The translations under genes and the position numbers were made by a program. Positions 7,427-14,439 of a stretch of DNA of 64,000 nt are shown here, piece after piece. The DNA comes from Parvibaculaceae bacterium. GTDB lineage: Bacteria > Pseudomonadota > Alphaproteobacteria > Parvibaculales > Parvibaculaceae. How positions within the stretch are numbered: the stretch's first letter is position 1; each line of letters begins with the position of its first letter. The notes under the pieces are model-generated. The model worked only from the letters and a program-made list of their open reading frames with translations. It was not told where the DNA came from and did no database searches. The stretch spans positions 248,001-312,000 of the forward strand of contig JAPWJY010000008.1 in assembly GCA_028283765.1 (NCBI GenBank). Reading direction: 5' to 3'.

Positions 7427-9148
7427 ATGCGAACACGGCTCATCTGGATCGGCGTGCCCATCCTCGTGGTCATTGCCCTTTTTGCCGGATGGCGTCTGTT
7501 CAGCCATGAGCCGCGCCCCTACATGGTGGCGAGTGCCGAGCGGCAGGCGAGCGAGGCGGGCGTCGAGATCCTGCGGCAGGGCGGCAATGCGCTCGATGCT
7601 GCCATCGCGGTCGAGGCCGTACTGGGGTTGATCGAGCCGCAGTCATCCGGCCTCGGGGGCGGGGCCTATCTGCTTTACTGGGATGCGGGCAACAAGGCGC
7701 TGACGAGCTATGACGGCCGCGAGACCGCGCCTCATGTGATCGATCCCGGCGCGTTCCTCGATGCCGACGGCAAGGAGCGAAGCTATATCGACGCCATGCT
7801 GTCGGGCCAGTCGGTGGGCACGCCGGGCCTTGTGAAAATGCTCTGGCTCGCCCATCAAAAGCACGGCAGGCTCGCCTGGAAAGACCTTTTCGCGCCTGCG
7901 ATCCGTCTTGCCAATACGGGCTTTCCCGTCTCGCCGCGGCTTGCGGGCTGGCTGAAGCTGGACCCGGCGCTGGCCAAGATGCCGGGCGCGGATAAATATT
8001 TCTACAGGACGGACGCTTCCGGCGCGCGCATGCCGCTCGTGGAAGGCGATATCCTTAAAAATCCGGCCTATGCGCAGACGCTTGAGCTGATCGCCGGCGA
8101 GGGGCCGGACGGGTTCTACAAAGGTCCTGTCGCGCAATCCATCGTCGATGCGGTGACGAATGCGCCGCGCCGTCCGGGCGCGCTGACGCTGGACGATCTC
8201 CGGAATTACGAGGCGAAGGAACGCGCGCCCGTCTGCGGTCCTTACCGGGCGTTCAGGGTCTGCGGCATGGGCCCCTCCAGTTCCGGCGGCGTCACCACAT
8301 TGCAGATTCTCGGCATCCTCCAGAGCTTCGACATGGGCGCGATCAGGCCGCTCTCCCTTGAAGCGGTGCACTTCATGTCGGAGGCATCGAAGCTCGCCTT
8401 CGCCGACCGCAATCTTTATCTGGGCGACCCCGATGTTCACGCCCCGCCGGTGGCGCAGATGCTGGCCCCCGCCTATCTGAGGTCGCGGGCCGACCTGATC
8501 GACCCGAGCCGGACCATGGGGCAGGCCAAACCCGGCGTGCTTCCCGAGGTGAAGGCGGAGCAGTTCGCCCCCAACAGCGATATATCGCTGCCCTCGACCA
8601 GCCATTTCAGCATTGTCGATGGGGATGGCAACGCCATCGCCATGACCGCTTCCATCGAGGGGCCGTTCGGCAGCCATCTGATGGCGTCCGGCTTTCTGCT
8701 CAATAATGAGCTTACGGATTTCTCGGCCTTTGCGACCGACAACGGCAGGCCGGTGGCGAATGCGGTCGCGCCCGGCAAAAGGCCTCTGTCGTCCATGTCG
8801 CCCACCATCGTTTTCGACAAGGAGGGCGCGCTCTATGCCACGCTCGGCTCGCCCAACGGCACGCGCATCATCGGCTATGTCAGCCAGATGCTGATCGCGC
8901 TGATAGACTGGCATATGGGCGTGCAGCAGGCGGTCGACCTTCCCCATGTCGTTGACATGAACGGTCCGCTGGAGCTGGAGGAGGGCACCTCCGTCGTCGC
9001 GCTGGAGCCGACCCTGCGGCAGCTCGGTCATGAGGTGGTCATCACGAAGCAGCCAAGCGGCATTCAGGCGATTGTCGTGACGCCGCAGGGATTGCAGGGC
9101 GCGGCCGATCCCCGCCGCGAGGGCGTGGTGCTGGACGGCAAGCTTTAG
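7427..9148 (+). CDS. ggt: Gamma-glutamyltransferase
   Basis: Gamma-glutamyl transpeptidase/hydrolase acting on glutathione and other gamma-glutamyl compounds in the periplasm. Residues 4-22 form a signal anchor; ALDAAIAVEAVLGLIEPQSS is the large-subunit signature. The autocleavage nucleophile is Thr391 in STSHFSIVD, which starts the small subunit; SSMSPTIVF and the GSPNGTRIIGYV region complete the active site. The start is ATG 7427 behind GGGAGGAG; an upstream in-frame ATG at 7397 lacks such a site. The stop codon overlaps the convergent glucokinase stop by a few bases, so both mRNAs probably read into each other. Confidence 0.94.
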   Translation: MRTRLIWIGVPILVVIALFAGWRLFSHEPRPYMVASAERQASEAGVEILRQGGNALDAAIAVEAVLGLIEPQSSGLGGGAYLLYWDAGNKALTSYDGRETAPHVIDPGAFLDADGKERSYIDAMLSGQSVGTPGLVKMLWLAHQKHGRLAWKDLFAPAIRLANTGFPVSPRLAGWLKLDPALAKMPGADKYFYRTDASGARMPLVEGDILKNPAYAQTLELIAGEGPDGFYKGPVAQSIVDAVTNAPRRPGALTLDDLRNYEAKERAPVCGPYRAFRVCGMGPSSSGGVTTLQILGILQSFDMGAIRPLSLEAVHFMSEASKLAFADRNLYLGDPDVHAPPVAQMLAPAYLRSRADLIDPSRTMGQAKPGVLPEVKAEQFAPNSDISLPSTSHFSIVDGDGNAIAMTASIEGPFGSHLMASGFLLNNELTDFSAFATDNGRPVANAVAPGKRPLSSMSPTIVFDKEGALYATLGSPNGTRIIGYVSQMLIALIDWHMGVQQAVDLPHVVDMNGPLELEEGTSVVALEPTLRQLGHEVVITKQPSGIQAIVVTPQGLQGAADPRREGVVLDGKL

Positions 9149-10146
9149 CCAATCTGCCGCTGATGGCGCGCGGCCGCATGAGCAAGGCCCAGCAGGGCCG
9201 GGTTGTCACGCCGCACCACGAAAGTGGGGATATTTTCAAGATAAGCCTTGAAGCGCCCCTTCGCCTCGAAGCGGTGGCGGAAATAGGCCGCCTCGAAGAG
9301 ATCGCCCCAGCCGGGCACGATGCCGCCTGCGACATAGATGCCGCCGCCGGCCCCGATGGTCAGCGCCAGATTGCCCGCGAAGGCCCCGAGCCAGCCGCAG
9401 AACAGATGTACCGCCTCGACCGAGATCGGGCAGGTGCCCGCGCGCGCCCGGTTTGCAATGTCGAGCGCGGCCGGGCGGCCTTTCGCCATGGTGTCACCCG
9501 AAGCGCCATCTATCGCGCCGATGGCCATGTAGAGGGCTTCGAGGCCGGGACCGGAAAGCACGCGCTCGGCGGAAACATGGCCATATTCCTGCATGAGCTG
9601 GTAGATGAGCGAAATCTCGCGCGGGCTGGTGGCGGCCAGATCGACATGCCCGCCTTCGCCCGGCAGAACGATGAAATCGTCATCAACCGGAACAAGTGTG
9701 GCGACGCCGAGCCCCGTGCCCGCGCCAAGAACGCCGATGGGCTGGCCCGGGCGCGCCCTGCCCGGTCCGATCTGCACGGTATCGTCAGGGCTTAGCGCCG
9801 GAATCGACCAGGCAATGGCGCTGAAATCATTGAGGAGGAGGGGTGACCCGACGCCCGTGGCGTCCGCGATGGTGGAGACGGACACATCCCACGCACAGTT
9901 GGTCAGCAGCACATGGGCATCGCCGCCTTCGCCCAGCACCGGCCCTGCGGCGCACATGGCGGCCCCGGCGAGATCGGGGTTGCCCGCCTGCGCGAGATAG
10001 GTGCGGATTGCAGTTGGGAGGTCAGGGTGCAGAACCGTCATCCAGGCGGCGGCATGGCGCAGTTCGATCCGACCGTTAGTCCGGCTCGCCAGCGCAAATC
10101 GCGTGTTGGTGCCGCCGACGTCGCCGACGAGAACCGTGCCCCTCAT
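9145..10146 (-). CDS. glk: Glucokinase
   Basis: ATP-dependent phosphorylation of glucose to glucose 6-phosphate, of the bacterial Glk (ROK-independent) type. The N-terminal phosphate-binding motif GDVGGTNTRF lies at residues 8-17, LLNDFSAIAW is the sugar-binding segment, and GAGTGLGVATL and IGAGGGIYVAGGI are the other nucleotide/sugar motifs. Length 333 residues is typical. It lies 43 bases after otsA on the same strand, so otsB-otsA-glk may be one unit, linking glucose activation with trehalose synthesis. Confidence 0.94.
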   Translation of the reverse strand: MRGTVLVGDVGGTNTRFALASRTNGRIELRHAAAWMTVLHPDLPTAIRTYLAQAGNPDLAGAAMCAAGPVLGEGGDAHVLLTNCAWDVSVSTIADATGVGSPLLLNDFSAIAWSIPALSPDDTVQIGPGRARPGQPIGVLGAGTGLGVATLVPVDDDFIVLPGEGGHVDLAATSPREISLIYQLMQEYGHVSAERVLSGPGLEALYMAIGAIDGASGDTMAKGRPAALDIANRARAGTCPISVEAVHLFCGWLGAFAGNLALTIGAGGGIYVAGGIVPGWGDLFEAAYFRHRFEAKGRFKAYLENIPTFVVRRDNPALLGLAHAAARHQRQIG

Positions 10147-10189
10147 TTTCCCCGTCTCCCCCGTTCTTCTTATTATTTTTATCTTATAG

Positions 10190-11569
10190 TCAGGAAACGG
10201 TCTCGCCCGCGAGAGCCTGAAGGAAATCGTCGCGCCAGTGGGCAGCGTCCTCCCGGATCAGCCCCTGCTTCAGGCTGGCATGACGTTCCTTGCGTTCCTC
10301 AAGCGGCATGTCGAGCGCGCGCTTGAGCGCGTCGGCCACGCCCTTTATGTCGTAGGGATTGACGATGAGCGCCTCGCGCATCTGCCGGGCCGCGCCTGCG
10401 AAGCGCGACAGCACCAGCACGCCGGGTGCTTCATCATCCTGCGCCGCCACATATTCCTTGGCGACGAGGTTCATGCCGTCTCGCAGGGGCGTGACCAGAC
10501 CGACCTTGCTGGCGCGATAGAGCCCCGCGAGCGAACGCCGCGAGAAGGGCCGGTTCAGATAGCGAAGCGGCGTCCAGTCATATTCGGAAAAGCGGCCGTT
10601 GATATGGCCGGTCATGCCTTCGAGCTGGGCCCTTATGTCCTTGTATTCCTCGACTTCCGCGCGCGAGACGGGAGCGATCTGCAACAAGGTCACCTTGCCG
10701 CGCAAATCCCCGTAATCCTCCAGCAGCCGCTCGAACGCGAGAAACCGCTCCGGCAGGCCCTTGGTGTAGTCGAGCCTGTCGACGCCGATGATCTGGGCGC
10801 GCTCGCCCAGCATCTTGCGCATCTTGAGGTCCTGCCGTTTTGCTTCGCCATCGTCCTTCGCCATCCCGGCGAAAGCCAGGGCATCGATGCCGATGGGAAA
10901 GGCGCGCGCCTCGATGGTGCGGCCATAGGCGCGAATCCTGTCGCCGAGCACGCTGCCTTCCGCTTCATGGATCACATAATCGGTGAAACGGTCGCAATCG
11001 GACTGGGTCTGGAAGCCGACAACGTCATAGGCGAAGAGGGCGCGGACCAGCGCATCGTGGTTGGGCAGCGTCGCGAGGACCTCGCGCGAGGGAAACGGGA
11101 TATGCAGAAAAAATCCCATCCGCTGCTGCGCGCCGAGGGAGCGCAATTCATGGGCGAAGGCGAGGAAATGATAATCATGCACCCAGATCAGGTCTTCAGG
11201 CCGCAGAAGCGGATTGAGACCCCGGGCGAACTTGTTGTTTACCCGCAGGTAACCATCATAATACTGACGATCGAACGCGGTCAGGTCGATGCGATAGTGG
11301 AACAGCGGCCACAGGCAGCGGTTGGCGAAGCCGTTGTAGTAATCGTCGTATTCCTTCTCGGTGAGATCGAGCGTGCAGAGCGTGAGATTGCCCGCGCCCT
11401 CAAGCGTCAGCTTGGTGCCTGACGCCTCGTCGATCTTGCCGCTCCAGCCATACCAGATGCCGTCCCGCGACTTGAGCGCGTCGACCAGCGCCACCGCAAG
11501 GCCGCCCGCGCGGCCGACATCCTTGACGGGACCGACCCGGTTCGAGACGACGACAAGCCTGCCCGTCAT
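10190..11569 (-). CDS. otsA: Trehalose-6-phosphate synthase (UDP-forming)
   Basis: GT20 glycosyltransferase joining UDP-glucose and glucose 6-phosphate, first step of trehalose synthesis. It begins [13 protein letters not shown], the substrate loop of OtsA, then has [10 protein letters not shown]-like [19 protein letters not shown], the [15 protein letters not shown] block and a C-terminal [17 protein letters not shown] 11569 overlaps the otsB stop as ATGA, indicating translational coupling; a longer reading frame from 11614 would lie inside otsB and is not needed. 459 residues, normal size. Confidence 0.95.
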
Positions 11570-12321
11570 CTGCGGGACTTTCGCTCGAAATATGCCGACA
11601 TATCCATCAACCACTCAAAAACAGCAGCAGGCGAGGACAGGCGATGATCGGCACTGCTCGTGCCGTCACCGACCTTGATTGCCAGACCCGCATGATTTTT
11701 CACGAATTTAAAACCATCTTCGTCCGTTATGTCATCTCCGATAAAGACCGGCACACGGGTGGAAAAAGGTGGAGCCTGCATCAGGCGCTCCATTCCAGTA
11801 CCCTTGTCGGCCCCTTTCGGTTTCACCTCCACCATCATTTTCCCGAACATCAGTTCAAGATTTTCGTGGCCCTTGACGGCTCTGGCCGCCAGATCGCGCA
11901 TCTCGGTCTCTCGTTCGGGGGCAAGCCGGTAATGCAGGGTGAAAGCGGCGGATTTGAGTTGCAGGATCAATCGAGGGTCACCGGCGATCAGCGGTTCCAG
12001 TTCCGCGATCACATCGGCAAGACCGCGGGAATCGTCCATCACAATGGTTGCGTCGCCCATTTTGCGGCGCAGTTCCGCGCCATGGATGCCGGCACCTGGC
12101 AGCATGAGCCTGAGGAACCCGTCCACATCGCAAAGCTCGCGTCCGGTGACGATGGCAAGCGCCCCGTCAAGTTGAGTGGAGAGTTTTTGCAGCAGTCCCG
12201 TCAATCCGGCGGGCACCTCCACCAGATCGGGTTTCGGCGCCAGATCGACCAGCGTGCCGTCGAAATCGAGGAACAGCGCCCAGTTCCGGGAAGGGACGGG
12301 CAGGCCATCCAGTCCGCTCAT
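11566..12321 (-). CDS. otsB: Trehalose-6-phosphate phosphatase
   Basis: HAD-family phosphatase releasing trehalose from trehalose 6-phosphate. The nucleophile motif DFDGTLVD is near the N-terminus; IVTGRE is motif II; KGTGMERLM supplies the conserved Lys and FIGDDITDEDGF is the acidic motif binding Mg. The start could be ATG 12321 (MSGLDGLP) or GTG 12342 seven codons upstream; ATG is preferred. It is the first gene of a coupled otsB-otsA pair. Trehalose here would act as a compatible solute, an inference from the pathway. Confidence 0.94.
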   Translation of the reverse strand: MSGLDGLPVPSRNWALFLDFDGTLVDLAPKPDLVEVPAGLTGLLQKLSTQLDGALAIVTGRELCDVDGFLRLMLPGAGIHGAELRRKMGDATIVMDDSRGLADVIAELEPLIAGDPRLILQLKSAAFTLHYRLAPERETEMRDLAARAVKGHENLELMFGKMMVEVKPKGADKGTGMERLMQAPPFSTRVPVFIGDDITDEDGFKFVKNHAGLAIKVGDGTSSADHRLSSPAAVFEWLMDMSAYFERKSRR

Positions 12322-12392
12322 GTCTCTTTTATTCCCGATCACCCTGTCACTTCATGTTGATCCGGCAATGCTGGCCGGAAGGAGGTCCCGTT

Positions 12393-13805
12393 TCAGCCGA
12401 AGCGGGAGAGGAAACGCACCAGCGCCCGGGTCCGGGCGCTGAAAAGCGTCGAGGTGTAATAGCTTTCCGCCGCGCGCACGGAGATTTCGCTGCGGTTGGG
12501 ATAGGGCACCGCCAGCGCCGACATCGCGCCGATCCGCAGCCGCTGCGATACCGCCATGATCCAGGGCGCGATCAGTTCACCTGCGCCGGGCGCGGCGATG
12601 GACGCGCCCCGCACGATGCCTCTTTTATCGAGGATTATTTTTATCAGGCCCACCGGGTCGCGTTCTATCTGCGCCCGGTCATTTTCACCCAGCGGCCAGC
12701 GCAGCAGGGTGATGCGTCCGAACTGGTCGCGCGCCTCGGCCTCGGTCGCGCCGACATGGGCAAGCTCGGGGTCGGTATAGGTCACATGAGGCAGCAGTTC
12801 CATGTCGGCGCGGGCGGAAAGCCGGAACAGTGCGTTGCGCAGCACGACCTGCGCCTGACGGGCCGCCGCATGGCTGTATTGCGGGCCGCTCGCCACATCG
12901 CCAATGGCGAAGACGCGACGGTTGCTCGTGCGCAGACGCCGGTCCACGGCGATGCCCTTTTCGTCATGGTGGATGCCCGCCTTGCCGGGATCGAGTTCCC
13001 CGATGTTCGGCACCCGGCCTGCTGCGACCAGCACGTGGCTGCCGTCGATCCAGTAATAATGTTCGCCCGTGTCGATGGTGATGCGCATGCTCTCGCCCAT
13101 CTGCAACACCTCGGCGACATTGACCCCCTCGATGACCTCGACCCCTTCGCGGTGAAGGCGGGTTCTCACGATGTCGACCAGTTCGGGGTCGTCGCCGGGC
13201 AGCAACCGGCCCGCCTCGATCAGCGTTACCCTTGCCCCGAGCCGGACATGGGCCTGCGCCATCTCGATTCCCGTGGGCCCGCCGCCGATGATCATCAGGT
13301 GGCCGGGGCAGCTCTCCAGCCCGAACAAGGTCTCGTCGGTCAGATAGGGCACGGATGACAGACCGGGGATAACCGGGATCGACGGTCTTGAGCCGGTCGC
13401 CAGCACGAAGCGCCGCGCCCGCACGCTGACATTGCCCGTGGTCAATGTCCGGGTGTCCTCGAAATGCCCGTCCTCATCGATGACGGTCACGCCGAGCGCG
13501 CGCAGCCGGGCCGCGCTATTGTTGACGGCGAGGTTGGCCTTTACGTCCTCGATATGCTGCCTGAGCCTTGCATAATCGATCCCGGCGGGGGCCGCCAGAA
13601 TGCCGAAAGCGCCGGCTTCCGCGACCAGATGGGCGCGCCGGGCCGCCGCGATCAGTGCCCGGGAGGGGATGCAGCCGTGATTGATCGGGTCGCGGCCGCG
13701 CACGAGGACGGTGGAGGCGCCCAGCTGGGCCGCGCCGATCGCCACGGCAAGCCCGCCCGTGCCGCCGCCGACCACGCATATGTCGGGCCTCAGAACCTCA
13801 CTCAT
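12393..13805 (-). CDS. Flavoprotein disulfide-reductase-like oxidoreductase lacking redox residues
   Basis: A 470-residue protein with the full two-dinucleotide-fold plan of lipoamide dehydrogenase/mercuric reductase: FAD motif VVGGGTGGLAVAIG at the N-terminus, NAD(P) motif IIGGGPTGIEMA in the middle, second FAD motif FAIGDVA, and the C-terminal dimerisation domain. The redox helix reads RDPINHGCIPSRAL where active enzymes have GGxCLNxGCxPSK, so the first cysteine is Pro. The C-terminal VPYPNRSE has Val where the catalytic His sits. It should therefore not catalyse dithiol-disulfide exchange; it may be a plain NAD(P)H-dependent flavoprotein. Partner unknown. Confidence 0.85.
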   Translation of the reverse strand: MSEVLRPDICVVGGGTGGLAVAIGAAQLGASTVLVRGRDPINHGCIPSRALIAAARRAHLVAEAGAFGILAAPAGIDYARLRQHIEDVKANLAVNNSAARLRALGVTVIDEDGHFEDTRTLTTGNVSVRARRFVLATGSRPSIPVIPGLSSVPYLTDETLFGLESCPGHLMIIGGGPTGIEMAQAHVRLGARVTLIEAGRLLPGDDPELVDIVRTRLHREGVEVIEGVNVAEVLQMGESMRITIDTGEHYYWIDGSHVLVAAGRVPNIGELDPGKAGIHHDEKGIAVDRRLRTSNRRVFAIGDVASGPQYSHAAARQAQVVLRNALFRLSARADMELLPHVTYTDPELAHVGATEAEARDQFGRITLLRWPLGENDRAQIERDPVGLIKIILDKRGIVRGASIAAPGAGELIAPWIMAVSQRLRIGAMSALAVPYPNRSEISVRAAESYYTSTLFSARTRALVRFLSRFG

Positions 13806-14153
13806 CGCCGGGCTGTCCGTTCCTCATTGCAAAGCTGCGATCGAAGAAACCATAAGCTACTGGTTCTGCAATAAAAAATCCCGTCTGTCGCTTCATTGCG
13901 GATAAATATGGGCCTTGTCCCGTCTCCGGGCGTGCGGGATGGCATTCACATTGACTTCACCGGCCTTTGTCGCCTATACCAACCGCCAATCCGCCGCCGG
14001 GTTTGACCGCCTGCGGCCCTTTTCGTTTGCCAAGCCCTCCAGAGGCAGAAGAACGGCCCTTAAGATGTTGATTCAAAGGGGTTGTATCGCCTGTTGGGGC
14101 TTCATCTCCCTCGGCCGCAAGGCTCGGGAGACCAGATTTGCCGGAGAAGACAC
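13806..14153. other. Intergenic region upstream of rpmH
   Basis: No gene is supported here. It separates the divergent flavoprotein gene from rpmH and holds a good promoter for rpmH (13951-13980), leaving a long 5' leader of roughly 165 bases before the rpmH start. A GC-rich segment around 14000-14140 could fold, but no named RNA element was recognised. Confidence 0.6.
13951..13980 (+). promoter_or_regulatory. Putative sigma-70 promoter for rpmH-rnpA-yidC
   Basis: TTGACT at 13951-13956 and TATACC at 13975-13980 with an 18-base spacer, near-consensus for a housekeeping promoter and pointing at rpmH. Confidence 0.55.
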
Positions 14154-14288
14154 GTGAAACGGACTTATCAACCCAGCGCTCTCGTCCGCAAGCGCCGCCA
14201 TGGTTTCCGCGCCCGCAAGGCAACTGTCGGCGGCCGCAAGGTGCTGGCCGCGCGCCGTTCATGCGGCCGCAAGCGTCTCTCCGCCTGA
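14154..14288 (+). CDS. rpmH: 50S ribosomal protein L34
   Basis: The 44-residue L34 protein of the large ribosomal subunit: (M)[20 protein letters not shown] followed by the [10 protein letters not shown] block and GRKRLSA. The start is GTG 14154 behind GGAGAAG; starting further upstream would add a non-homologous leader. Small substitutions (Ala for Lys at residue 9, Ser-Cys before the final GRKRLSA) do not disturb the fold signature. It opens the conserved rpmH-rnpA-yidC cluster. Confidence 0.96.
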
Positions 14289-14439
14289 AGCATGCGACAG
14301 GCGTGGCAACTGCGGTTGCCTGCTTTTCGTCTGGCTTCGGTGTCTTCCTGCGGCGCCCTCATATTCTGCCGTCTGCATCCCTGATGGGATCGGGCGGCGC
14401 AGCGGGACGGCACGTGCGCGTGCCGGACGGATCGGCCGG

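Follow-up and report, generated by a model that had tools for sequence, protein, structure and literature searches.

We describe here a flavoprotein of the disulfide-reductase fold, designated P0001, that has lost the first cysteine of its redox pair, and we observed that such losses recur in separate lineages of a flavoprotein family whose genes are normally adjacent to a gene for a VTT-domain protein. P0001 is encoded within a 64,000-nucleotide stretch of Parvibaculaceae DNA, referred to below as the window, and is the in-place orthologue, by best match and by position, of a widespread, uncharacterised alphaproteobacterial flavoprotein. At roughly even odds (about 0.5), we read P0001 as a former dithiol flavoprotein that may have been re-tooled to a disulfide-free NADH:acceptor reductase, similar to LpdA or Irc15p. 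The fold, and disulfide loss as an idea, are already known; what is new, within the literature searched, is the repeated loss within a VTT-linked family, the association of this loss with VTT absence, and the set of residues that changed along with the cysteine. Our search of the literature, conducted mostly at the record level, found no paper on disulfide loss in the VTT-linked flavoprotein family.

The P0001 gene is a single unbroken frame (Table 1), and both Pfam domains by which the disulfide-reductase superfamily fold is recognised scored above their cut-offs in its product: Pyr_redox_2 (185.4 bits, cut-off 26.1) and Pyr_redox_dim (65.5 bits, cut-off 25.3). The frame, the fold and the motif letters given in a first-pass annotation of this DNA were therefore borne out. 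The closest solved structures are those of mercuric reductase and lipoamide dehydrogenase (best match 5x1y, E 2e-61). P0001 matched 56 NCBIfam models and fell below the cut-off of every one of the 25 that were listed. Among these, the best was NF004991, 'FAD-containing oxidoreductase' (377.6 bits, cut-off 620), followed by the MerA model TIGR02053 (310.5, cut-off 454.45); P0001 also fell short of the lipoamide_DH model (285.8, cut-off 408.8), of NF005883, 'NAD(P)H-quinone dehydrogenase', which we take to be the LpdA model (204.5, cut-off 479), and of PRK06116.1, which we used with lipoamide_DH as the test for lipoamide dehydrogenase or glutathione reductase (169.7, cut-off 480). Three canonical orthologues gave 458–497 bits with NF004991, likewise under its cut-off, and passed none of the other listed cut-offs, so that a curated model specific to the VTT-linked flavoprotein family does not seem to exist. 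The window genome (G000; 3.24 Mb, estimated to be 100% complete) encodes other homologues, 2 of lipoamide-dehydrogenase type (L002, L003) and 1 of glutathione-reductase type (L004), as named from our reading of their motifs, and all 3 retain CxxxxC and the HPT motif. An AlphaFold model of P0001, built from 6 sequences, had a mean pLDDT of 52 and was not relied on.

P0001 carries RDPINHGCIPSR together with VPYPNRSE, and its counterpart in G001, the sole other species of the genus that was found, carries RDTVNHGCIPSR. Most orthologues have ExGxMGGDCLNxGCVPSK at the site of P0001 residues 36–49, which makes the motif of P0001 4 residues shorter and not 3, as had been annotated. One simple codon-level reading is that ExGx was lost before MGGDC and that M was changed to R, G to R and C to P. 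Neither species of the genus has the first redox cysteine (P40 or T40), and both proteins therefore lack the CxxxxC pair that characterizes class I enzymes. The annotation had both cysteines missing, which is correct for the first but not for the second, C45, which both species keep. The 2 proteins have cysteines at positions 10 and 45, plus 166 in one species only, and by alignment there is no cysteine near the C-terminus of P0001. A replacement disulfide was considered and thought unlikely, since the 2 species share only C10 and C45. Normal dithiol chemistry is not expected, in agreement with the annotation, because one cysteine of the pair is missing and the only other shared cysteine, C10, lies in the first strand.

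The FAD and NAD(P) motifs had been described as intact, and this was upheld for GxGxxG, ATGS, GD and the NAD segment, but not throughout. The GG before the redox cysteine has become GR, the Lys of PSK has become Arg, and the Glu that ends the second strand, which is present in 164/164 disulfide-keeping relatives, has been replaced or deleted; this Glu we take to be the residue that holds the FAD ribose in this fold. Because it is gone and the loop preceding the motif is 4 residues shorter, P0001 may bind FAD weakly or not at all. Within residues 165–200, 0 of 12 near-invariant columns (defined below) were changed in both species. The catalytic His of the His-Glu pair, a further mark of lipoamide dehydrogenase and glutathione reductase, is absent as annotated, the His column of HPTxxE being occupied in P0001 by Y435. 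This is not a specific loss, however: 163 of the 164 disulfide-keeping relatives have Tyr at this position and the remaining one has Phe, and the absence of His is thus an old family trait that is separate from the change in the genus.

Table 1. Features of the flavoprotein gene and its surroundings in the window (residue numbers are those of P0001)
Feature	Position	Strand	Basis
Glucokinase gene, a conserved family neighbour of the module	9145..10146	minus	neighbourhood
otsA, trehalose-6-phosphate synthase, GT20	10190..11614	minus	neighbourhood
otsB, trehalose-phosphatase, following the flavoprotein gene at 50 bases	11566..12342	minus	neighbourhood
Flavoprotein without first redox Cys, P0001	12393..13805	minus	frame, domains, orthologues
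VPYPNRSE, residues 433–440; Tyr at the catalytic-His position, T437 changed to N	12486..12509	minus	alignment
FAD 'GD' motif, G302-D303, kept	12897..12902	minus	alignment
NAD(H)-binding GGGPTGIEMAQAH...LIEA, residues 174–200	13206..13286	minus	alignment
D157; Asn in 164/164 disulfide-keeping relatives, changed in all 4 losing lineages	13335..13337	minus	alignment
Residues 89–96; I89 and I92 columns changed in all 4 losing lineages	13518..13541	minus	alignment
Remodelled redox motif RGRDPINHGCIPSR, residues 36–49	13659..13700	minus	alignment
C45, second Cys of the pair, kept	13671..13673	minus	C in 164/164 relatives and both species of the genus
Intergenic stretch; occupied in relatives by a VTT gene, frequently together with a DUF547 gene	13806..14153		match searches

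The gene order at the locus is yidC, flavoprotein, otsB, otsA, glk, ggt, which places P0001 between yidC/rnpA and otsB-otsA-glk-ggt, where its relatives also lie. The genes for the flavoprotein, otsB, otsA and glucokinase (9145–13805) are on the same strand, separated by 50, -49 and 43 bases, and have the same order in G001; these spacings, together with the shared order, suggest a single transcript. A search of 9000–14300 for terminator-like sites found none. A search of the bacterial family covered 40 genomes, and a search at the level of the order returned the same 40. An orthologue of the flavoprotein at E 1e-100 or better was present in 38 of them, with 49–55% identity over its length, and the 2 genomes with no match at this threshold (G009 and G025) are each 70–74% complete. 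The G001 assembly is 68% complete, and its contig is unbroken across the flavoprotein site.

In 4 of the 18 other family loci that were read (L072, L082, L085 and L087), the kinase and glucokinase genes flank otsB and otsA, and the idea that otsBA is a new insertion in the genus was given up. These 4 loci have the gene order of the window with the addition of a VTT gene before the flavoprotein and a kinase gene after it; their otsB and otsA are spaced about 1.8 kb apart, and the 2 genes overlap in the window's genus. A HATPase-domain kinase gene follows the flavoprotein in 17 of the 18 loci, is absent behind P0001, and has no match in G000 or G001. Loss of the kinase was rejected as the cause of the cysteine change, since the cysteine is kept in G030, G031 and G033, genomes in which the kinase query found nothing at E 1e-30. 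Also, DUF547 matches were found in 26 of the 40 family genomes, and neither the VTT nor the DUF547 query had a match anywhere in G000.

To locate the changes within P0001 we used 89 near-invariant columns, each at least 97% conserved among the 164 disulfide-keeping relatives. The G000 protein differs at 16 of these columns and the G001 protein at 17, with 15 columns changed in both species, as compared with a mean of 0.7 and a maximum of 4 for the 164 relatives. The columns changed in both species amount to 6 of 15 in residues 29–52, 4 of 7 in residues 89–105, 1 of 11 in residues 106–164, 3 of 8 in residues 296–320, 1 of 4 in residues 426–445, and 0 of 34 in residues 165–295 and 321–425 taken together. 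This distribution argues that the NAD segment was conserved and that the redox motif and 2 patches were rebuilt; to judge from the fold, the changed patches would face the flavin on its dithiol side.

The changes reflect a burst of divergence that is specific to the flavoprotein. The mean identity of the genus's flavoprotein to those of other genera in the family is 52.3%, and among those genera it is 67.3%, whereas 6 neighbouring genes exhibited little or no such gap (genus to others and among others, respectively: glk, 49.5 and 44.1%; yidC, 62.0 and 60.8%; engB, 67.7 and 65.3%; argB, 78.1 and 78.1%; ggt, 55.8 and 58.8%; S58, 65.8 and 62.0%). Between G000 and G001 the flavoprotein gene gave dS 0.50, dN 0.064 and dN/dS 0.13, with no stops and 470 aa in both species, and this purifying selection indicates that P0001 is not a dying gene. 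The corresponding dN/dS values for neighbouring genes are 0.117 (glk), 0.076 (otsA), 0.151 (otsB), 0.176 (rnpA) and 0.213 (yidC), and within the flavoprotein the lowest of 6 segments was residues 290–330, at 0.05. The conservation check proposed in the first-pass annotation was run in this comparison: the first cysteine is lost also in the G001 protein, which is 87% identical to P0001 and shares its constraint, and sequencing error or a single mutant is excluded by the same observations. In a gene tree of 70 proteins the genus was placed outside the family on a stem of 1.35, a placement that was weakly supported and drew a long-branch warning. Forcing the genus into a clade with the family cost 1.43 log-likelihood units (p-AU 0.478), so that the joint clade is not rejected, and genome position is the better guide to orthology than the gene tree.

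Among the matches listed, which are not all homologues of the class, GGxCxxxxC was kept in 228 of the 234 homologues read and absent in 6, which represent 4 lineages. This count was assembled from an alignment of 166 unique, better-scoring proteins (37 belonging to the family and 129 not, with 2 copies from a few genomes), of which 164 had the motif and 2, from G000 and G001, did not; from 51 further loci, 49 with the motif (one of them, L197, repeating a gene already counted) and 2 without; from 20 more loci, comprising 16 with the motif, 1 new case without it (L255), 2 repeats (L247, L248) and 1 off-motif match (L254); and from L273, an additional homologue without the motif. Left out of the count were 8 of 188 loci with no 300-bit match, L254 (in which the motif was uncovered), L275 (a 40% relative with the pair) and G312. 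The view that only the window's genus had lost the cysteine held for the 166 better-scoring proteins and was given up when lower-scoring matches yielded 3 more lineages. One search for viral copies found none; another gave a single 47% relative (L206), which matched from residue 45 on and was not used.

One of the 3 additional lineages is a second genus, represented by 2 species (G108 and G468) whose proteins carry GGQRLNSSCIPTK and GGQRLHSGCIPTR; the first cysteine is replaced by Arg and the second is kept, and the 2 proteins are 76% identical with a dN/dS of 0.22. Their loci (L255:2897-4318 in G108, and L273 on the minus strand from 5730 in G468) keep the VTT and kinase genes. In G719 (L248:7280-8698, beside yidC) both cysteines are lost, GD has become GG, and His is found at the family's Tyr column. 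In G763 the homologue (L247:8888-7491) is near full-length and lies beside a kinase gene, and it has lost both cysteines, GD (now GG) and one Gly of the first GxGxxG; to judge from these residues, it is possible that this protein is a pseudoenzyme. G719 and G763 are single genomes, and the estimates of constraint cover the 2 genera that are represented by 2 species. The pair is kept in members of the same bacterial families: G586 belongs to f70, as do G108 and G763, and G773 belongs to f174, as does G719. Because the 4 lineages belong to different genera, carry different changes and have same-family members that keep the pair, we read them as separate losses. The earlier suggestion of an unrecognised subgroup was thus half right, in that disulfide loss recurs; by their residues the cases look like separate losses within one flavoprotein family, not one old subgroup.

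Besides C40, the columns changed in all 4 losing lineages were I89, I92, N157 and the M before GG, the last depending on gap placement. Disulfide-keeping relatives have I89 in 162/164 and I92 in 161/164 cases. With 16, 17, 23 and 31 changes in the 4 lineages, and on the assumption of equal rates for all columns, about 0.3 of the 89 columns would be hit in all 4 by random expectation.

A VTT-domain protein (PF09335 match) precedes the flavoprotein in 18/18 of the other family loci read, and by coordinates the VTT match lies directly upstream of the flavoprotein in all 36 of the 40 family genomes that have one. The 4 family genomes without a match are G000 and G001, and G009 and G025, in which no flavoprotein orthologue was found. 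Among the 164 aligned proteins that keep the disulfide, the VTT gene is adjacent in 141, and a whole-genome search for the other 23 found a match in 22, in one case (G231) only at 2e-24, and none in G285; a VTT gene was also nearby in 16/16 of the keepers from the 20-locus set. Keepers scored in this way were the 164 and these 16, out of the 228. Genome-wide, G000 and G001 have no match to the family VTT protein, and each has one divergent VTT-domain protein elsewhere. G719 and G763 likewise gave no match genome-wide with a sequence query, which a very divergent VTT protein would escape, and in G108 and G468 a match is present and adjacent to the flavoprotein. The kinase is kept in all 4 of these genomes. 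In the aggregate, 3 of 4 disulfide-losing lineages lack a genome-wide VTT match, as compared with 1 of 164 tested keepers. Fisher's test on 3, 1, 1 and 162 (the last cell should be 163) gave p = 2e-5, which is only a rough guide because the test assumes independence among the keepers, and they are not independent.

Strict coupling of VTT loss to cysteine loss was rejected, since G285 keeps the pair without a VTT match and G108 and G468 lost the cysteine with VTT present. The G285 gene (L276:2846-4282) is beside yidC. Six f174 genomes had neither a VTT match nor, among the matches listed, a flavoprotein match at 1e-100, which suggests that loss of the entire module is possible. Parts of the module also occur apart: in the stretches read around the VTT matches of L274 (G319) and L277 (G231) no flavoprotein was matched, although a kinase match lies nearby in G319, and the G231 flavoprotein (L124) is on another contig.

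The VTT partner is probably a DedA protein of the COG0398 type, an assignment that rests on the association of COG0398 proteins with PF07992/PF02852; according to excerpts of PMC10127716, most COG0398 proteins consist of the DedA domain only, their commonest fusions are with PF07992/PF02852, and they are essential in Caulobacter and Dinoroseobacter. Tentatively, and with more doubt than confidence, we suggest that the family dithiol may serve the adjacent COG0398 DedA/VTT protein, that upon loss of this partner the disulfide together with I89, I92, N157 and perhaps the M before GG would tend to go, as in 3 lineages, and that the flavoprotein would then be re-used in a disulfide-free, NADH-responsive form. 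If this is true, the disulfide-losing lineages are natural knock-outs that expose the route taken by electrons in a DedA subfamily whose members are reported to be essential in Caulobacter. The VTT association ties the dithiol to a membrane protein and points to residues for mutation, and it places inside one bacterial flavoprotein family a recurrence of the disulfide loss known from LpdA, Irc15p and SthA.

For P0001 itself, our preferred reading starts from an ancestral dithiol flavoprotein beside a COG0398-type DedA/VTT protein, with which it would have worked jointly; the neighbourhood of the 2 genes is conserved. The window's genus lacks the VTT, DUF547 and kinase genes, the first cysteine of its flavoprotein is lost and a near-invariant cluster was changed in a burst, and the NADH-binding segment, GD, ATGS and C45 are retained in a gene now under purifying selection. 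FAD would still be bound and reduced by NADH, and electrons would leave the flavin directly, bypassing the disulfide, to a small acceptor such as a quinone-like compound, a metal ion or O2. The P0001 operon points to no acceptor.

The main rival to this reading is that P0001 has no turnover and has been retained because it binds NADH, perhaps without FAD, and acts as a sensor or as a structural partner. The missing FAD-ribose Glu and the shorter loop, next to a preserved NAD segment, make an FAD-poor protein a serious rival, and G719 and G763 have lost both cysteines and the Asp of GD and yet have a near full-length frame beside a kinase gene. As its alignment is read, G763, in which a Gly of the first GxGxxG is also gone, shows that the family can lose FAD motifs too, which counts against our preferred reading. 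Yet these more degraded cases are single genomes, and GD, ATGS, GxGxxG and C45 are all retained in the window's genus, in which residues 290–330 are the most constrained segment; we regard a protein without turnover as rather unlikely, though deserving to be taken seriously. That P0001 is instead a gene on its way out after loss of its partner we consider the least credible of the readings. The burst of changes and the missing VTT, kinase and DUF547 genes might be so explained, with G719 and G763 resembling further steps, but the dN/dS of 0.13 over a dS of about 0.5, the absence of stops and the equal length in the 2 species are not those of a decaying gene, and the near-invariant columns at which both species differ lie in clusters and are not scattered.

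The retention of C45 in both species, and of the second cysteine in G108 and G468, would also be in keeping with a single-cysteine flavoenzyme, in which C45 by the flavin cycles via sulfenic acid and NADH reduces peroxide, as in NADH peroxidase/oxidase. Single-cysteine peroxidases, however, belong to another branch of the superfamily. G719 and G763 have lost both cysteines, and LpdA, which keeps one of the 2, is called a quinone reductase in the excerpted text of PMC6296175, so that peroxide chemistry of this kind seems improbable for P0001. Transfer of hydride from NADH to NADP+ via FAD, as carried out by SthA, seems more improbable still. SthA is without one cysteine and has Tyr for the catalytic His, in YxxxxE (PMC9460512, in part), and the present family also has Tyr; this Tyr, being family-wide, is uninformative on the change in the genus. 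Moreover, SthA lost the opposite cysteine (CxxxxT), and P0001 scored 160.9 bits with the model for Si-specific transhydrogenase, against a cut-off of 465.

In comparison with the systems that it most resembles, P0001 shares with the VTT-linked, MerA/Lpd-like flavoprotein family the fold, the yidC/rnpA position, the C-terminal Tyr-x4-Glu motif, the NAD segment and C45, and differs from this family in the first cysteine, the FAD-ribose Glu, 4 loop residues, 16–17 of the 89 columns, and the VTT and kinase genes; no VTT gene was found directly upstream of P0001, and G000 and G001 have no match to the family VTT protein. MerA, the best solved-structure match (5x1y), has a C-terminal cysteine pair, and P0001 is without either the first redox cysteine or a C-terminal cysteine. 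SthA resembles P0001 in that one cysteine of the pair is replaced and Tyr stands for His, but it is the second cysteine that SthA has lost and the first that P0001 has lost (PMC9460512, in part). In the same excerpts, a change of either residue of the SthA CxxxxT motif somewhat lowered FAD content and gave poorer transhydrogenation, which is a warning that such changes can affect flavin binding. LpdA (Rv3303c) of Mycobacterium tuberculosis, like P0001, is an Lpd relative without one cysteine and the catalytic His (excerpts of PMC6296175 and PMC2440308); it is also without the Glu of the His-Glu pair, which P0001 keeps as E440. With one cysteine and the His-Glu pair missing, LpdA is described as reducing quinones and not disulfides (PMC6296175, in part) and as having quinone reductase and transhydrogenase activity (PMC2440308, in part). 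Irc15p of Saccharomyces cerevisiae is likewise an Lpd-like protein without the disulfide; it differs from P0001 in being eukaryotic, in keeping the catalytic diad and in missing both cysteines. According to excerpts of PMC6296175, its FAD is reduced by NADH and passes electrons to menadione, DCPIP, ferricyanide and, slowly, O2, but to none of the disulfides tested. By analogy with Irc15p, LpdA and SthA, relatives that lost the disulfide separately, P0001 may act as an NAD(P)H oxidase or reduce quinones, as the first-pass annotation proposed.
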